NCBI GenBank assembly: GCA_017620875.1
Contig: JAGAUH010000235.1
Coordinates: forward strand, 1-10,798
Length of the DNA stretch: 10,798 nucleotides
Origin: Clostridia bacterium
GTDB taxonomy: Bacteria > Bacillota > Clostridia > Christensenellales > Borkfalkiaceae
Direction: 5' to 3'
Position 1 is the first letter of the stretch, and the number at the start of each line of letters is the position of its first letter. The position numbers and the translations under genes are program-made. Of the stretch, positions 1-10,797 are shown piece after piece. The notes under the pieces were generated by a model. The model was not told the DNA's origin. It was given only the letters and a program-made list of their open reading frames with translations, and made no database searches.

Positions 1-3000
1 GTTCTAAACATAATACCAAACTTACCATAATTTTCTGGACCAACGATACCAGTCGTCTTAAAGTCTGCTTCTAGGTATAATCTAGATGAGTTTTCGTTAA
101 TAAAGAATAAGTGGTTGTCTGCTCCGTCGTTTTTGCTTAGAGTAACTTTTCTGTTAGCGTAGTGTACGTTGTCAGAAGCGTAGTCCATACTAACGTCCCA
201 AGTTACACCAGATTGAACTTGTTTGTTACCTTCGATACTACCAAAAGTAGAACCGTTTACTTGTTCAACAACGTTTTTCTTTAATTCTTCCACCTTAGCG
301 TTAACTTGAGTTCTGTCTGTAATATAAGAATAATCTTTTACTTCCATACCAGAGTTAAAGCATAGGAATCCGTAAACTGCTTCTACGTCGTCTTGCATAC
401 CACGTTGTTCTGCACTAGAGAAGAATAATTGATCTTCTAAGAAGAAGTAGAAATAGTTATCTATTCTTGCCATAGCAAGTTTTACGTAGTTACCCGTTCC
501 TTTATATACGATACCAGGCGCGTTTTTAAAAACTTCCGTAGTACCCCAGTCCCAGTCACCACCACCAATCTTACTTTGAGTATAACCAACAGCCATATTC
601 GTATAGTTGTTAGCCGCGTCGATATAGAAGAAGGTACATGCTTGGTCGTTTTTAGCAATAAGTCCTAGTTTTGGCCACTTATCACCCATATAAGATGCAG
701 GCGCGTAAACGTTAATCTTTCCTTCGAAGTAGATAACGTCTCCACTAACGCCCTTAAAGTAAGATAATTGGTCTCTTGGTCCCATTGTCTTAATTGACTT
801 AGTAGTTTTAGTATCGTTTGTTAAATCGTAACCGAAAGTAGTGTTAAATTGAACGCCGTTTGCAACTGCAGAACCAATTGTTTCACCTTCGTAAATCTTT
901 TTAATTGCAGGAACTTCTGCATTTTTATAAGAATAAGGTGTAGCAAGTTTTTCGTCGCTTACAGGAGTTATTGTAGTGTTGTTTTTATTAGCAAGTACCA
1001 TAATTTCGCTAACTTTAAAGGTTTGAGTTGAACCACTAGCATTTACGTTACCTGCAATTTCAATTTCTATTTTCTTTACAGGAAGTTCTGCAAATTCTAA
1101 TATAGCAGATCCACCTGGGTAAACAACGCCCATCATATCGTAGTTGTATTTGCTATAATCAAATTGCCAATCGTCTACGACAACTTGTTTATCTCCGCTT
1201 GTAGATAAATAAGTGATAGTCGTTTTAGTAATAGCGCCATCTAATAAACGACGAGCATACTCTCTTGTAAAGTGTAGCATTATTGCTCTTACGTTTTTAT
1301 ATTCGTTACCAAAGTCTATTGTAATGCTTGGCGCAACACCCGAACTACTTGTAGAACCGTTAAAGTAAACGTCTTGAGTAATAGTACCTATATCAGATGG
1401 ATCGTGATACATAATTAATCCGTCGGTTAAATAACTTAGCGCTGGAGAGTCGCCACGTACTCTGGTTGCGCTTACGTTACTTGCATTTGCAACGTTTTCG
1501 TATCCGCTAACTTCTACAGGTAATGCTTGATATCCGTAAGTAGGTCCGTTACAATATAAAATTTCTTTTCCGTTGTAGTTTACAAATTGAATTTTATCTA
1601 TTGCAAGGGCTCTACCGTTTTGAATAGTCATTCTGTCTTTAAAAGTGTGGTAAGCAATATAAACTTCGTTACCAACTTCGATAAAGCTGTGGTGACCAAC
1701 GCTAGTTACAACGCCGTCCCAATCGTAAGTAGACTTAATAACCGTACCACCACTATATGGATCTAGTTTTGTAAATCCAGAAAGTGGGCTAGAAGAAGTT
1801 GCAAGTCTTACTTGGTAGTTTACGTCTGTATAAGGGTAAATAGAGAAAGTCATCATATAAGTTCCGTTTCTCTTAATCATAAACGGACCTTCGTTAACCC
1901 ATGCGCCAGAACCTCTACCTTCGTGATCTACAAGAGCACCACCTACGGTCATACGGTGAGTTTGACAAATTACGTTTGTAGTTGAGTAGTCTGGAGTTAA
2001 CCAGTCTTTCATTCTTACGCCGTAAATACATTGATTAGAAGAACCTGCTTTACTAGCGCCCCAACCGGAATAGTATAGATACTTAGTTCCGTTGTCGTCT
2101 ACAAATGGAGATGCGTCGATAACGTTAGTACATCTTATATCGCTTGCAATTGCAGTGTTTGCAGTTGAGAAGTCGAATACGGGAGCGTTAACGGATAAAG
2201 ATTTGTTATCGCTATTTTTAATTCCGTTTGGGTGATAGAAAGGACCATTTGGCTCTTTTGCGTATAATACTGATAAGTGTTGAGTTGTTGCTCTATCCGT
2301 ACCAGAAACGAAGTCTTGGCTAGCATCGTATTTTTCTGCGTTGAAGAACATAAAGTAGTGGAATTGTTCGCCACCAATATTCATACCTGCTTCGTCGTAA
2401 ATAATTTCTGGAGCCCAATAGTTTGTATAAGCCCAGTTATTATTAAAGTCTGGTAAGTATACAGGTCCCATATCTTCCCAGTTTACCATATCTTTACTTC
2501 TCCATGCTTGGAAGCCTACACATCCAATTTGGTCAGAAGTACCATAAGCGTAGAAGTATCCGTATTCGGTACTGTTTTTATCGCTAATGTAAATAACGGT
2601 AGGGTCTGCTACTTCGAACTTTAATTCGTTATAGTAGAATAAGTTTCTGTTGTAATCAGAATCTACTTCTCTGTAGTCTTCGTAGTTAAAACCTGTAGTA
2701 GTAGTTTGAGAACCGCCACCCATTCCGTCGTCAGAAGAAGATGAAGTAACTACGCTAGAACTGCTAGGCTTTGCGCTAGAAGAACTAGATTTTTCGCTAG
2801 AACTGCTTGGCTTTGCGCTAGAAGAACTAGATTTTTCGCTAGAACTACTTGGCTTTGCGCTAGAAGAACTAGGTTTTTCGCTAGAACTACTTGGCTTTTC
2901 GCTAGAACTACTTGGCGCTTGGCTAGGAGCACTAGGAGTTTGAGAAGAAGTAGAAGTACTTGGAGGATTACCAGCCCCCGCCTTTTTACAAGAAGCGAAA

Positions 3001-3050
3001 ATTGGTAAAACCATCATTAATACTAAAATTAATGATAAAATTCTTTTCAT
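1..3050 (-). CDS. Secreted GH43 glycoside hydrolase lipoprotein, 3' end outside window
   Basis: An open frame of 1016 codons runs off the left edge without a stop. The ATG follows AAAGGAG at 3057-3063 with a 6-nt spacer. Residues 1-21 are a lipoprotein signal (FASC, lipid anchor at C21), so the enzyme should be tethered outside the membrane. Residues 22-120 are a Ser/Pro-rich spacer. Residues about 145-490 show a GH43 five-bladed propeller: base Asp149 (ADPTV), NYWAPE at 210-215, the pKa-modulating Asp312 (DASPF), acid Glu387 (NEGPF), GHHSF at 452-456 and YHT at 467-469. The family cleaves arabinose- or xylose-containing plant polysaccharides; the exact substrate cannot be read here. About 570-690 resembles an F5/8-type (discoidin) carbohydrate-binding domain. 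About 720-910 and again from about 930 are two related concanavalin/LamG-like beta-sandwiches. Codon choice is biased (Phe mostly TTC, many TAC and AAC), suggesting high expression. Family call is strong; accessory domain names are inference. Confidence 0.93.
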   Translation of the reverse strand, partial: MKRILSLILVLMMVLPIFASCKKAGAGNPPSTSTSSQTPSAPSQAPSSSSEKPSSSSEKPSSSSAKPSSSSEKSSSSSAKPSSSSEKSSSSSAKPSSSSVVTSSSSDDGMGGGSQTTTTGFNYEDYREVDSDYNRNLFYYNELKFEVADPTVIYISDKNSTEYGYFYAYGTSDQIGCVGFQAWRSKDMVNWEDMGPVYLPDFNNNWAYTNYWAPEIIYDEAGMNIGGEQFHYFMFFNAEKYDASQDFVSGTDRATTQHLSVLYAKEPNGPFYHPNGIKNSDNKSLSVNAPVFDFSTANTAIASDIRCTNVIDASPFVDDNGTKYLYYSGWGASKAGSSNQCIYGVRMKDWLTPDYSTTNVICQTHRMTVGGALVDHEGRGSGAWVNEGPFMIKRNGTYMMTFSIYPYTDVNYQVRLATSSSPLSGFTKLDPYSGGTVIKSTYDWDGVVTSVGHHSFIEVGNEVYIAYHTFKDRMTIQNGRALAIDKIQFVNYNGKEILYCNGPTYGYQALPVEVSGYENVANASNVSATRVRGDSPALSYLTDGLIMYHDPSDIGTITQDVYFNGSTSSSGVAPSITIDFGNEYKNVRAIMLHFTREYARRLLDGAITKTTITYLSTSGDKQVVVDDWQFDYSKYNYDMMGVVYPGGSAILEFAELPVKKIEIEIAGNVNASGSTQTFKVSEIMVLANKNNTTITPVSDEKLATPYSYKNAEVPAIKKIYEGETIGSAVANGVQFNTTFGYDLTNDTKTTKSIKTMGPRDQLSYFKGVSGDVIYFEGKINVYAPASYMGDKWPKLGLIAKNDQACTFFYIDAANNYTNMAVGYTQSKIGGGDWDWGTTEVFKNAPGIVYKGTGNYVKLAMARIDNYFYFFLEDQLFFSSAEQRGMQDDVEAVYGFLCFNSGMEVKDYSYITDRTQVNAKVEELKKNVVEQVNGSTFGSIEGNKQVQSGVTWDVSMDYASDNVHYANRKVTLSKNDGADNHLFFINENSSRLYLEADFKTTGIVGPENYGKFGIMFR
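2754..2900 (-). repeat. Tandem repeat encoding the Ser-rich spacer of the GH43 lipoprotein
   Basis: Seven heptapeptide units of the form (E/A)-K-(P/S)-SSSS cover residues 51-99. In the DNA the later units alternate with a period of 42 bases (two heptads), and successive copies differ at only a few positions. The segment joins the lipid anchor to the catalytic domain and probably acts as a flexible stalk through the cell wall. Long near-identical copies of this kind can change number by slippage, and because 21 and 42 are multiples of three the frame would be kept. Confidence 0.9.
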
Positions 3051-6397: not shown

Positions 6398-6424
6398 GCC
6401 GAACTTAAGTTTAGTTCGGCTTTT
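6398..6424 (+). terminator. bioY terminator
   Basis: GCCGAACT (6398-6405) pairs with AGTTCGGC (6413-6420) around a 7-nt loop, followed by TTTT and an AT-rich tail. It begins 6 bases after the bioY stop codon. Confidence 0.8.
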
Positions 6425-6436
6425 ATAATATTAATA

Positions 6437-6465
6437 TTGCAAAAAGTAGTTTATCGTGATAAAAT
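6437..6465 (+). promoter_or_regulatory. Promoter of the STAND NTPase gene
   Basis: TTGCAA (6437-6442), 17 bases, then TAAAAT (6460-6465) with TGA directly before the -10 as an extended -10 element. Start is predicted near 6472, leaving a short leader of about 25 bases that holds the ribosome binding site. It begins just after the bioY terminator, so the gene is independently expressed. Confidence 0.6.
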
Positions 6466-6496
6466 AATAAAAAGCAAACTATTAAAGGGGCAATTT

Positions 6497-9400
6497 ATGA
6501 TAAAAGTATTTATTTCTTCTACGTTTAGCGATATGCAAGCCGAAAGAGATATCCTATTAAAAAGGGTATTACCTAGCGTACGCCAATTTGCAAGAACTAA
6601 AGGACAAGACGTTTGCTTTGTAGATTTAAGGTGGGGAATTTCTAACGAAGAATTAACTTCTACCGAGGCGACTTGTAAAATATTATCGGTTTGTATGCAA
6701 GAAATAGATTCTTGCCAACCATATTTCGTACTTTTATTGGGAGATAGATACGGCACTCTGCCCAACCTAGACGCCCTAAAAGAATTTTTAGCAAAAAACG
6801 ACACGCTAAACTTATCACAATCCGAAAATAAAAGCATAACCGAACTAGAAACACTTTACGCCCTATCTAACAAAACCGTTACGCCAAAAATTATTGCTTG
6901 CATTAGAGAAAATAGTTTTTTACAAGACGTCCCTAAAGAATTAAAACCTTTATACCAAGAAAAAGAAAACGAAAATTTACTTTTAAATTTTAAAAATAGT
7001 ATAAATAACGATAAAAACGTAAAAGTAATATCATATTCGCCTAATTGGGATAGTAACGCACAAAAAATTTGCAACCTACACGATTTAGAAGAAAAATTAA
7101 CTTTAGAACTAATAGAGCAAATATCTCTTAACCTAGGTACAGAACCGCCTTGTATAGAAAAAGACGCCCTTTTATTTGACACTTCTATTTTAAACAAATA
7201 TTCTTCCATCTTTGTAGAGAGAAACGAATATACTAACGAGATTATTTCTTTTACCAATAGCACTAATAACGTTTTAATTTTAACGGGGGACACGGGCAAC
7301 GGAAAAACTTGTTTAATAGCCCAAGCATCTAAACTTTTAACTAATCAAGATAACGTAGTTATTACCCTGTTTTTAGGCAACGGGTTTTATAATGCCACGA
7401 TAGAAAATATACTAACAAATTTAATATACAGATTAAACCAATTTTGTTTATCCCCTATCACTTTGCAACAAGACTACCCGTTAGACAAGTTAAAAAGCAT
7501 TGCAAAAAATATTATAACGGAAATATCAAAAACTAAAAAAGTTATAATATTAATAGATAATTTATCGGCGCTACTAACGGAAGAACGAAAAGAGTTTTTC
7601 TCTTATATACCGCTAAACGATAACGACGATTATAAACTTATAGTTTCCACAAATAGCGTTAACACTTTAAATTTAAACGCGTTAATAACTCACCCTTGGC
7701 AAGAATTAAGCGTTTTGGGGCTAAACCAAACCGAAGTAACTAGCGTTGTAAACGCTTTATTAAAAGAAGAAGGCAAAGAACTAGACAAAAATTCTTTACA
7801 AGAGTTTTATAACGCTTGTCTATTCCGCTCTCCGTTATATATTTCTTTAGCAATAAAAAGACTAATGATACTATCCCAAGCCGACTTTAACAATATTAAC
7901 ATACTATCTAAAGAATTAAAGATAGACGGCGGAGAGGCAATATCTAAATATTTAACTCAACTAATTAAAAATCTACCTTATACGGAAGAAGAACTTGCTA
8001 GCCTTTTAATTGAACACGTTGCAAAAGAATTTGATATAAAAAACTATAAAGAGTTAATTAATTTAATAGTTATTTCAAACGAGCAACTACGCGCCCAAGA
8101 CCTGGTAGAAATTTTAAACGCAAATAGTAAAGAAAAAACCACTTTATTTAGCGTTGTAGGATTCGTTAGGTATTTAGACGAAGTTTTAAGTATAAACTCT
8201 TTTACTAACCGCATACAACTAGCCCATCCAATAGTAAAAAAGCAAACGGAAAGCATTTCCGTAGACGAAACCTTAAACTTATATAACGCGGTTTTTGAAT
8301 ATATAGACCGACTTGACAACGCCGAACCCATAAAAGAAAAACTATATTTTATTTTTGCTTTATACACAAACAACTTTTTTAAAGCGGTACAATTTTTACA
8401 CACCGTACACACTAATAAAACAAAAAACGCTTATACGGAACTAAAAAACGCATTTTCTTTTCCGCAAAACAGAGATTTTTTTATAGACCAATTAAATATG
8501 CTACCTAAAGTAGCATTGGATATAAGCAAAGATTGTTTAAATATTATCTCGCAAGAATTTATTGGCGAAATATTTTTAATTATAAACGGGGTATCCCGCG
8601 GTGGCGGTTTAGAGTTAAAATTGTTAAAACCATTATACAATTTAACGTTTTTAAATCTATATCAAAAAAATGCGTTTAATATCTACAACCGCACGGTTTA
8701 TATGATAGCCGAAAAATGCCTTGTTTGCGCTACTAGTTTAGAGCAAAAAGAAAAGTTTAGCGATATTTTTATAGACCAAAGTTATAACTTGCTAAAACAC
8801 GCAGACGAAAATTATGAGCACTTAGACTTTATCGTTAGCGACCTAGGTTACGCCTACGAAAAAAAGGCGGATCTTTTGCAAGTGGTAAACGACGTAAACC
8901 AAGCCGACAAGTATTATCTTTTTGCGATAGACGCGGTTAGTTTAAACGTAAAAATTAGCACCGACAAACTAGACCTTTTACAATATCAAAAATATTTATT
9001 TATCTATCAAAGATATAAAATGCTAGTAGATAATTTTATTTACGATAAAAAAACGACTTTTAACTTAAAAGGTTTACTTAAAAAAATTAAAACCGATTAT
9101 AAAAATTTACCTACCGAGCTTTTAGCGGTAATAGATTTTTGCAATAAAGCCGTTAAAAATTTTGTACAAGAAGAAAGAAGTATGAGTTTAACTAGTTATA
9201 TAACTCTACTTGCCGATAGCAATTTTACCCTTGCTAATTACTACGGTCTTTTTGACGAAAATGGCAAACAAGCCGATTATTTAATAGACTCGTTGCAAGC
9301 AAACTTACTACTCTACCAAAATTGCGACGGCTTAATTGCGTACGACAGGATAAGACTTGTAGAATTAAATTTAGGATATAACCCAACCATACCAAATAAA

Positions 9401-10756
9401 GATCGCTTAGAATTTTTAAAAAGCGCAAACAATAAAACGAAAGACTTATTAAAAGCCGATTTAACCCAAGCCCAAACAGAAGCGTATAACGGCGTGTTAG
9501 ACACAATAAACGGCGAAATGATAAAAATTTATTTTTCTATTATACACGATAAAGTACAAGTTAACAGCAAAGAGTTTATCCATAATTTTAAAAACACTTT
9601 TTTAAAAAACCTAACCCATATATCTAATAAAAATTTCGAATTTTTGTTAGAAACTTGCTTAGAGTACCTACAAGAAACCAACCTTTCTACAATGCCGTGT
9701 AGCGTAAACTTTAACGAAAGAGAAGAACTTATTATAAAAAACGTACACGTTGCTATGCAAACCACTATTGCTATGCTAATAAATTATGGCATTGGTTACG
9801 TAAAAACCCCTTACTCTTTAATAAAGCCAAAACTAACCTTAAAAGAAGTAAAATTGTTTAAGCAAGTAGCAAATATAAACCAAAACCTTATTACACTAGC
9901 AAAACTTTTTACGGAAAAATATTTAGACGAATATAACAACACGCTTTTTATTGCCTACGTTTTAGACCTTTTAAAACTAAGTAAAACAGCTTATCATAAT
10001 TTATACTTAGCTTGTTGCGACTTATACGATAAAGAAAATAAAGAATATTGGTACTATAAAGAACTTATAGCAAAAAGCGATTATTCTTTTTTCGAAAACC
10101 TAGGTAGACTATACAAAGGCACGGATAACGAGTATATAGAGCCACATAGTCACTATTTTGTACAAGTTATTGCAGATTTAAAACTATTTGCTTTTTGCAT
10201 TAAAAAAGGCGACAAATTGCTTAAAGACTATATACAAATAGCAAAAAATAAAAGCAAATATTGGTACACCCTTTACACCGCCTTAAAACAACAAAAAGAC
10301 TTTTGCTTGCAAGAAGAATTTGATATAGTTGGCAAATATATATGTTCTACCATAGACGAAGTTTCTACCAAACGAATTTGCTATTATAGTAACTTTTACG
10401 AGTGTGTCGCCCTAGAATACGCCTACAAGCACAACTTAAAAAAAATCGCTCATAAAATTGTAGACGACGGATACGATTACTATTTAGAGTTTGAAACTTT
10501 ATATCTACTACGCAAGTACGACAAGCAAAGATATATCACAAAAATTAACGAACTAAAAGAAGTTTGCTTGCTTAAAAGAATTAAAGAAATTAAACACGGA
10601 TATTTTACTAGCAAAACTTATATACAAGAACTTTACGGAAATATTTTCTGTACGGAATTTTTAAACCTAGCAACTATATCTTTAAACGATATAGATTACT
10701 CTAACCCAAAAAATCCGCGTTTAAACCCAACAAAAATAAAACCGCCTTGGGCTTAA
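6497..10756 (+). CDS. DUF4062-STAND NTPase with long helical C-terminus (NPHP3/TEP1-like), 1419 aa
   Basis: ATG 6497 follows AAAGGGG with a 6-base spacer, and the first domain starts at residue 2. An upstream in-frame TTG at 6437 is part of the promoter. Residues 3-130 are DUF4062, a TIR-like fold: VFISSTFSDMQAERD (4-18), VDLRWGIS (42-49), the C-x-EI-x-C-P segment leading to LLGDRYG (80-86), and ITELE with Glu116/Glu118. Residues about 235-480 are a STAND NTPase: P-loop GDTGNGKT (264-271, Lys270), Walker B VIILIDNL with Asp354, LIVSTNS (381-387) at the sensor-1 position, then a helical bundle with the family's PLYISLAIKRL signature. A winged-helix segment follows to about 600, with LAHPIVKK around His577. 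The last 800 residues look like helical repeats without a motif I can name. STAND proteins are nucleotide-driven switches that oligomerise on sensing a ligand. An anti-invader role with DUF4062 as effector is inference. The stop is followed by a second TAA. Confidence 0.9.
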   Translation: MIKVFISSTFSDMQAERDILLKRVLPSVRQFARTKGQDVCFVDLRWGISNEELTSTEATCKILSVCMQEIDSCQPYFVLLLGDRYGTLPNLDALKEFLAKNDTLNLSQSENKSITELETLYALSNKTVTPKIIACIRENSFLQDVPKELKPLYQEKENENLLLNFKNSINNDKNVKVISYSPNWDSNAQKICNLHDLEEKLTLELIEQISLNLGTEPPCIEKDALLFDTSILNKYSSIFVERNEYTNEIISFTNSTNNVLILTGDTGNGKTCLIAQASKLLTNQDNVVITLFLGNGFYNATIENILTNLIYRLNQFCLSPITLQQDYPLDKLKSIAKNIITEISKTKKVIILIDNLSALLTEERKEFFSYIPLNDNDDYKLIVSTNSVNTLNLNALITHPWQELSVLGLNQTEVTSVVNALLKEEGKELDKNSLQEFYNACLFRSPLYISLAIKRLMILSQADFNNINILSKELKIDGGEAISKYLTQLIKNLPYTEEELASLLIEHVAKEFDIKNYKELINLIVISNEQLRAQDLVEILNANSKEKTTLFSVVGFVRYLDEVLSINSFTNRIQLAHPIVKKQTESISVDETLNLYNAVFEYIDRLDNAEPIKEKLYFIFALYTNNFFKAVQFLHTVHTNKTKNAYTELKNAFSFPQNRDFFIDQLNMLPKVALDISKDCLNIISQEFIGEIFLIINGVSRGGGLELKLLKPLYNLTFLNLYQKNAFNIYNRTVYMIAEKCLVCATSLEQKEKFSDIFIDQSYNLLKHADENYEHLDFIVSDLGYAYEKKADLLQVVNDVNQADKYYLFAIDAVSLNVKISTDKLDLLQYQKYLFIYQRYKMLVDNFIYDKKTTFNLKGLLKKIKTDYKNLPTELLAVIDFCNKAVKNFVQEERSMSLTSYITLLADSNFTLANYYGLFDENGKQADYLIDSLQANLLLYQNCDGLIAYDRIRLVELNLGYNPTIPNKDRLEFLKSANNKTKDLLKADLTQAQTEAYNGVLDTINGEMIKIYFSIIHDKVQVNSKEFIHNFKNTFLKNLTHISNKNFEFLLETCLEYLQETNLSTMPCSVNFNEREELIIKNVHVAMQTTIAMLINYGIGYVKTPYSLIKPKLTLKEVKLFKQVANINQNLITLAKLFTEKYLDEYNNTLFIAYVLDLLKLSKTAYHNLYLACCDLYDKENKEYWYYKELIAKSDYSFFENLGRLYKGTDNEYIEPHSHYFVQVIADLKLFAFCIKKGDKLLKDYIQIAKNKSKYWYTLYTALKQQKDFCLQEEFDIVGKYICSTIDEVSTKRICYYSNFYECVALEYAYKHNLKKIAHKIVDDGYDYYLEFETLYLLRKYDKQRYITKINELKEVCLLKRIKEIKHGYFTSKTYIQELYGNIFCTEFLNLATISLNDIDYSNPKNPRLNPTKIKPPWA

Positions 10757-10777: not shown

Positions 10778-10797
10778 ATTGCTTGCAAGCAATTTTT
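10778..10797 (+). terminator. Terminator of the STAND gene
   Basis: The perfect palindrome ATTGCTTGCAAGCAAT (10778-10793) can form a 6-bp stem with a 4-nt loop and runs into TTTTT at 10793-10797. It lies 21 bases past the stop, at the window edge, so the full T-run may be cut off. Confidence 0.6.

Follow-up and report, generated by a model that had tools for sequence, protein, structure and literature searches.

A single-gene bacterial DUF4062-STAND-solenoid protein with an NLR-like plan and a predicted TIR-like NADase head

Locus and domain architecture

The window analysed here is contig JAGAUH010000235.1 of a Clostridia bacterium (10,798 nt; assembly GCA_017620875.1), part of a draft genome of 1.28 Mb in 291 contigs that is 58% complete. 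Its minus strand encodes a GH43 enzyme and a lipoprotein; the plus strand encodes BioY and, after it, the gene studied here (Table 1), which joins a DUF4062 head to a STAND NTPase and an extended helical solenoid in one polypeptide. The product was interpreted, with moderate probability, as a single-gene bacterial NLR-like receptor, predicted to act as a STAND-gated TIR-like NADase and to abort infection by phages.

An open frame extends from a TTG at 6437 to 10756, and 11 of 13 aligned homologues begin at the residue encoded by the ATG at 6497; P0008 and P0016 have a longer N-terminus. Eight homologues of 1416-1438 amino acids covered 100% of the query at 31-41% identity in the protein search, which indicates that the reading frame is real.

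The head matched Pfam DUF4062 (PF13271) at residues 3-122 with 53.8 bits against a cut-off of 24.7, as the first-pass annotation had expected from the letters. Among sequences of solved structures, the sole match at E<=1 was 11gz_A, 'Telomerase protein component 1' (TEP1; E 1.6e-18, residues 2-189), which supports the TIR-like effector slot proposed there. In the AlphaFold2 model of the head, strands and helices alternate; the listed rows of the fold search were taken up by matches to the NTPase half. A preprint of 5 May 2026 (PMC13174449; here and below, statements on cited articles refer to the portions of their text that were available) describes DUF4062 as a TIR-like NADase and reports E1008-dependent hydrolysis of NAD+ and NADP+ by human TEP1. 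A single offset of 893 placed R908, R954, R976 and E1008 of TEP1 on the correct letters of 11gz_A, and these residues correspond to S11, K61, R84 and E118 of the studied protein. Thus, the catalytic glutamate is kept as E118; of the three arginine positions, two carry a basic residue (K61 and R84) and one does not (S11).

Conservation was counted after removal of rows identical to or contained in another, leaving 231 distinct proteins for the N-terminal profile and 227 for the NTPase profile; the homologues were collected by similarity, and the counts therefore describe conservation within the family and are not an independent test. The E118 column held Glu in 194 of 194 aligned homologues (37 of the 231 alignments end before it), and the R84 column held Arg in 226 of 231. 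The motifs that had been named from the letters were all found and are conserved: SSTF, DLRWG and GDRYG in the head, the P-loop G264-K270, D354 of Walker B and SPLY at 445-448.

Behind the head, Pfam NPHP3_N, a NACHT-type NTPase family, was matched narrowly (25.6 bits, cut-off 24.8), but NACHT PF05729 stayed below its cut-off (15.9 against 26.7 bits), so that the NACHT/STAND profile search proposed earlier came out positive for the first family only. P-loop, Walker B and the helical and winged-helix module of STAND/NACHT proteins were all found. The confident model of residues 1-600 gave fold matches to Avs3, Apaf-1, CED-4, NRC2 and plant NLRs across about residues 217-600, RPP1 and Roq1 among them, in agreement with the NLR-like fold that had been claimed. 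The NTPase module also matched 8bob, which we take to be MalT, the maltose-system regulator, and the TPR-STAND protein 6mfv.

Past about residue 430 no Pfam family was matched at E<=1, and there was no TPR profile match. The C-terminal half, said at first to match no nameable repeat family, was modelled as a TPR-like solenoid, an assignment by fold only. The structure predictions gave an NLR/Avs-like fold for residues 1-600 and a TPR-like one behind it. Near the C-terminus lies a conserved block that was found in the window protein and in only 15 of 130 homologues and marks a small, rare subfamily; it had no match among sequences of solved structures. Its profile found the gene itself alone in 391 genomes of the class and 396 of the order (overlapping sets) and, in 398 genomes of the phylum, one weak, partial match (E 2.6e-4, in a 349-amino-acid frame, G1203:C71:56601-56789, locus L185). 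A different effector on this C-terminal sensor was not found by the block profile in these class, order and phylum genomes. A search with residues 600-1419 returned P0001 only and missed known family members as well, so that its negative is uninformative on an effector swap. The idea of a swappable design has support in one respect only: 222 of 231 distinct N-terminal-profile proteins have the NTPase profile, whereas the C-terminal block occurs in 15 of 130 homologues. No exchange of the effector was seen.

Profiles, models and homologues agree on a large gene for DUF4062, STAND NTPase and helical sensor at this place; the first-pass annotation was correct in architecture and needed correction on the C-terminal half and on the status of DUF4062. 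This domain, described there as little studied in bacteria, is reported in PMC13174449 as a TIR-like NADase with anti-phage function in bacterial proteins bearing a small auxiliary domain. Five bacterial DUF4062 proteins with similar C-terminal auxiliary domains were challenged with phages, and for the one from K. pneumoniae binding of the phage portal is followed by abortion of the infection; predicted defence islands contain about 20% of bacterial DUF4062 genes, and the NACHT module of TEP1 is speculated to oligomerise its head (PMC13174449). Judged by titles and the starts of abstracts, this preprint alone centres on the domain among the available articles that mention it. The available text of PMC8195603 makes no mention of DUF4062, TEP1, NPHP3 or TIR-like domains, and that of PMC7159879, which has STAND passages, none of DUF4062, TEP1 or NPHP3.

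A promoter and a terminator of its own had been ascribed to the gene. A promoter-like site and a hairpin behind BioY were found, but promoter-like sites are about equally frequent in shuffled sequence (29 observed, 24.2 expected with a standard deviation of 5.7), and the palindrome 3' of the gene (10778-10793, followed by T) was not scored by the terminator scan; terminator-like sites numbered 8 against 4.1 (standard deviation 2.0). The contig ends at 10798, 42 bases beyond the stop, and the downstream neighbour lies outside the assembled sequence. The GH43 enzyme (3-3050, minus strand) has a long Ser/Lys/Pro-rich stretch behind a lipoprotein-like signal.

Table 1. Features of the studied gene in the window, and RyR proteins at loci (L numbers) of its relatives
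Feature	Position	Strand	Basis
Whole DUF4062-STAND-solenoid gene, 1419 amino acids, stop TAA included	6497..10756	+	Open frame with ATG; full-length homologues
Shine-Dalgarno-like AAAGGGG ahead of ATG	6484..6490	+	Read from letters
Promoter-like TTGCAA-17-TAAAAT, TG before second hexamer	6437..6465	+	Scan; such sites not above chance here
Terminator-like hairpin between BioY and the studied gene	6398..6420	+	Scan
TIR-like DUF4062 domain, residues 1-213	6497..7135 (Pfam 3-122 = 6503-6862)	+	Pfam, 11gz_A match, AlphaFold2 model
R84 codon, TEP1 R976 equivalent	6746..6748	+	Alignment; column conservation
E118 codon, TEP1 E1008 equivalent	6848..6850	+	Four-residue numbering; column conservation
NPHP3_N / NACHT-type NTPase core, residues 253-367	7253..7597	+	Pfam; fold match to Avs3, Apaf-1, CED-4
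Walker A GDTGNGKT, residues 264-271	7286..7309	+	K270 in 212/213 aligned rows of 227 distinct proteins
Walker B VIILID, residues 349-354	7541..7558	+	D354 in 215/216 aligned rows of 227 distinct proteins
Helical and winged-helix STAND part, about residues 425-585	7769..8251	+	Model secondary structure; Apaf-1, CED-4, plant NLR matches
TPR-like helical solenoid, best-matched part residues 683-1066	8543..9694	+	Fold model; helical half about 590-1419
Conserved C-terminal block (E.YAY..., GYD.YLE..TLY.LR.YD), subfamily-specific	10307..10693	+	Invariant columns; profile match E 5.4e-50
RyR proteins near DUF4062-STAND genes	L032:6566-8323, L043:539-2293, L060:1594-3351
RyR proteins near DUF4062-STAND genes	L083:3448-6021, L070:8181-9890, L072:13924-15729
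RyR proteins near DUF4062-STAND genes	L076:2201-5002, L028:4445-5881, L053:14125-15906

Distribution and neighbourhood of the relatives

The first protein search, in which 7991 candidates were scored, gave at least 131 homologous proteins, none carrying a source-given name, and a profile search gave 140 at E<=1e-10. A relative was encoded in at least 467 of 589 species-genome stretches scanned, and the 80 loci kept for comparison came from many phyla according to their record titles. DUF4062-STAND proteins are thus widespread. In the family of the window, the distribution of DUF4062 is patchy: 17 of 301 genomes, its own included, had a DUF4062 of any kind, 15 of them over the cut-off. The seven top-scoring matches of this family were short proteins (frames of 327-360 amino acids), which resemble the Swarozyc plan considered below as far as size goes, and the others were long.

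Among 40 relatives searched with the protein, two had a match and neither match extended past query residue 188, so that homologues at the same locus in all relatives, which had been named as a refutation of the first reading, were absent. A contig scan with the single protein as query found no relative, and a scan of viral sequences found one, of a WD40 form and not of the subfamily of the window. BioY was present in 23 of the 40 relatives at 27-43% identity, too diverged to mark an empty site, so that there is no demonstration of insertion at a known site.

Several arrangements were observed at individual loci. The viral relative, a DUF4062-STAND-WD40 gene (L104:7245-11033), has tRNA-Pro on one side and a block of DNA-methylase and tail genes on the other, a cargo-like placement. 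Two genomes of one genus have a common three-gene set (L106:9156-14525 and L107:920-6313) of a 178-180-amino-acid protein, a 1272-amino-acid DUF4062-STAND protein and, downstream, one of 347-370 amino acids; the flanking proteins at L106 matched no Pfam family over its cut-off. In the family of the window, a 601-amino-acid TIR_2 protein (L108:82-1884; 41.6 bits) with a weak ThsB match and a CxxC near its start follows a 1440-amino-acid DUF4062-STAND gene (L108:2244-6563), and another TIR_2 protein (L118:4732-6048; 68.6 bits) is encoded about 2.4 kb away from a short DUF4062 gene. At four of the seven short-DUF4062 loci of this family (L114-L120), the next downstream gene, overlapping or within about 10 bases, is of the inositol monophosphatase family with 162.8-177.7 bits (L117:8342-9175, L118:7636-8409, L119:7892-8704 and L120:8378-9181).

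The setting of the relatives was compared using 173 neighbours within 4 kb at 30 Bacillota loci (by record title) and, as control, 134 neighbours of BioY at 20 loci of the same 30 genomes (24 had BioY; four loci were dropped for want of an anchor). At E<=1e-10, and among 25 of 28 model families listed, neighbours of DUF4062-STAND genes matched models of AbiO, Nhi, LmuA, Qat/PifA-type KAP NTPases, Avs1a, a DRT type, type II methylases, ThsB, viperin and several PDC candidates. Control neighbours, among 25 of 50 families listed, matched mad3, GlgB and a block of reverse-transcriptase (retron/DRT) models. These are matches by model rather than by protein; one protein can match several models, and matches to mad2/mad3 are unspecific, falling on ABC transporter and methyltransferase parts. 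The comparison is only suggestive of a defence setting of the relatives. Their neighbours matched a wider set of defence models than the control neighbours, but the control held retron/DRT models and the neighbours in the window itself are ordinary.

RyR-domain neighbours and alternative roles

Comparison of neighbours with one another revealed a protein of about 586 amino acids common to three DUF4062 loci. Its C-terminal end is a RyR domain (PF02026; 58.2, 55.5 and 54.7 bits, cut-off 27.4), and an HD-like motif can be made out by eye. Further neighbours, selected with a profile of the three or through a genome search, all had RyR over the cut-off (10 of 10 and 2 of 2). With part of the neighbours scanned by Pfam, RyR was over the cut-off in 13 of 81 DUF4062 loci (L028, L032, L043, L053, L060, L070, L072, L076, L083, L088, L097, L099 and L102), and the other 68 showed none. 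It was found in one of 15 loci from the family and order of the window (L113), and the three-protein profile found no RyR protein in 24 BioY control loci. In 50 genomes selected for their DUF4062 loci (50 of 74 loci first sought), the cut-off was passed by 36 RyR domains, spread over 24 genomes, and by 104 DUF4062 domains. Twelve of the 36 RyR domains, in 10 genomes, lay within 6 kb of DUF4062, whereas about 0.33 would be expected from uniform placement, a figure that leaves aside the clustering of defence genes in islands; without the three discovery loci the count was nine of 33. The remaining 24 of the 36 were away from DUF4062, six of them strong solitary domains in frames of 102-147 amino acids.

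At L032, L043 and L083 the two genes are on one strand, in differing order, with gaps of 18, 39 and 3 bases. Such short gaps look operon-like, and the excess is large despite the sampling. Among the other pairs some overlap and the rest have gaps from 25 bases to about 3 kb, those at L028 and L097 measuring 2-3 kb; at L088 and L099 the DUF4062 beside the RyR gene is a short fragment, with the full gene 5-6 kb away. RyR stays while the other domains of the partner vary: RelA/SpoT with or without SLOG (LSDAT_prok, under its own cut-off in two of three), TrkA-N, AAA or none that is named. RyR-linked members are scattered across the family tree, which includes truncated duplicates; the label of L062, whose genome has its RyR gene on another contig near a different DUF4062 gene, is wrong, and the scatter of the remaining labels holds.

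In animals, cyclic ADP-ribose acts on ryanodine receptors, and a 2015 survey of nucleotide-centred conflict systems in Nucleic Acids Research reportedly treats RyR and SLOG. Should RyR domains of prokaryotes bind molecules derived from NAD, some DUF4062-STAND proteins would be signal makers. The same STAND-gated enzyme might then, instead of or besides plain NAD+ depletion, yield ADP-ribose or a cyclic form of it, sensed by a RyR protein in which the real effector resides (TrkA-N, RelA/SpoT or others). This appears unlikely for the studied protein. No RyR gene is present on its contig, which ends behind the palindrome shortly after the stop, and its own genome gave no RyR match, although that genome is incomplete and the search matched none of the control genomes either. 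TEP1 formed no further ADP-ribose derivatives, and RyR is absent from the available main text of the preprint (PMC13174449). In Thoeris (ThsB TIR, ThsA SLOG-SIR2), which bears on this signalling idea only, a TIR-type enzyme makes the signal for its partner (PMC9503650, whose available text has SLOG passages and no mention of RyR, DUF4062 or TEP1). Unlike in Thoeris, the partner near the relatives is a RyR protein, sometimes with SLOG (LSDAT_prok), and none is visible for the studied gene. A broader proposal, that the bacterial DUF4062-STAND class, this protein included, answers a sensed phage with an ADP-ribose-type signal for RyR (and SLOG) domains, and that both the animal pairing of cyclic ADP-ribose with ryanodine-receptor or TRPM-type proteins and the TEP1/NPHP3 architecture descend from such a bacterial immune module, is quite improbable as it stands.

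Several observations weigh against a phage-aborting NADase. Purified human NPHP3, NWD1 and NWD2 showed no NADase activity (PMC13174449), so that the domain order does not guarantee activity. At the position of TEP1 R908, a change of which lowers TEP1 activity (PMC13174449), the studied protein has S11, and the K61 column, corresponding to R954, held Lys or Arg in just 146 of 191 aligned distinct rows. No PADLOC model exists for the protein, the only match being TRIP13 (E 0.021). BioY, the lipoprotein and the GH43 enzyme on the visible upstream side are not defence genes by Pfam, as the first reading had also said; the G+C content of the gene (31.2%) is inside the range of its neighbours (27.1-38.3%) and gives no sign of recent transfer; and the neighbour comparison is weak, its wider set of defence models notwithstanding, as the control had retron/DRT models.

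The inactive human proteins, with their shared domain order, would also fit a DUF4062 head that is an inactive scaffold, the whole protein then serving as an assembly platform or STAND regulator, a role that NPHP3 and NWD1/2 may also have. The invariant glutamate and the nearly invariant R84 are as catalysis would require, albeit in a set gathered by similarity, and we regard a scaffold as distinctly unlikely. A STAND regulator of the cell's own physiology, tied to the neighbouring sugar and biotin genes and not to defence, is less probable again and was considered very unlikely: BioY and the GH43 enzyme adjoin, and the NTPase module matches 8bob (presumably MalT) and 6mfv, but no DNA-binding output domain appeared in the Pfam scan, the output slot is occupied by the TIR-like domain, and the 40 relatives gave no match past residue 188 despite the presence of BioY in many of them.

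Comparison with known systems and implications

Swarozyc (KpSwz) shares the TIR-like DUF4062 head and a catalytic glutamate, E97 in KpSwz, and the likeness of the glutamate in the studied protein rests on the TEP1 alignment; in Swarozyc a helical stalk joins DUF4062 to a helix-turn-helix or winged auxiliary domain that binds the phage portal (PMC13174449). The studied protein does not follow this plan and has a STAND NTPase and a long solenoid after the head. Since these replace the auxiliary domain, gating and ligand must differ.

The plan of the NPHP3/TEP1 type, DUF4062 followed by an NPHP3_N-type NTPase and a repeat region, was found, the repeats being TPR-like by fold only. The claimed agreement with animal NPHP3, TEP1 and NWD1 corresponds to the order given for NPHP3, TEP1 and NWD1/2, human TEP1 and NPHP3 having DUF4062 and then a NACHT-type NTPase (PMC13174449). 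TEP1 differs in its WD40 repeats and in acting in the vault, and NPHP3 in its lack of NADase activity in the assay of the same preprint. The effector-STAND-solenoid plan of Avs (AVAST) is matched by the predicted models; however, the protein had no PADLOC Avs match, and, compared with Avs and bNACHT, its effector is DUF4062 rather than a nuclease or SIR2.

Plant TIR-NLRs combine an NTPase-gated TIR-type enzyme with a C-terminal sensor, and RPP1 and Roq1 appear in the structure matches. The studied protein differs from them in having a TPR-like solenoid as sensor, not leucine-rich repeats, and a head of the DUF4062 branch.

The NLR-like receptor that we favour has a computed basis in the order of its domains, the homology of its head with that of TEP1, whose catalytic glutamate it keeps, the NTPase motifs, the NLR/Avs-like fold and the solenoid; activity, gating, oligomerisation, ligand and anti-phage benefit are predictions. 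At rest, the NTPase module would hold the TIR-like heads inactive. Binding of a ligand by the solenoid may then be the trigger upon which the NTPase would exchange nucleotide and oligomerise. The oligomer would bring the heads together, these would hydrolyse NAD+, and the cell, stalled or killed upon sensing of the phage, would abort the infection.

NADase and anti-phage activity of a bacterial DUF4062 protein without STAND (Swarozyc) and the NADase activity of TEP1 are already reported (PMC13174449). What is missing beside the proteins in the available text of that preprint is the STAND-coupled bacterial form, in which one gene has the whole TEP1/NPHP3 plan. The link to RyR is a directly testable claim on an NAD+-derived signal. 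From the STAND-coupled form one would learn in what way a TIR-like head is governed by an NTPase switch and which ligand the solenoid senses, and it may perhaps explain the apparent inactivity of human NPHP3 and NWD1/2.

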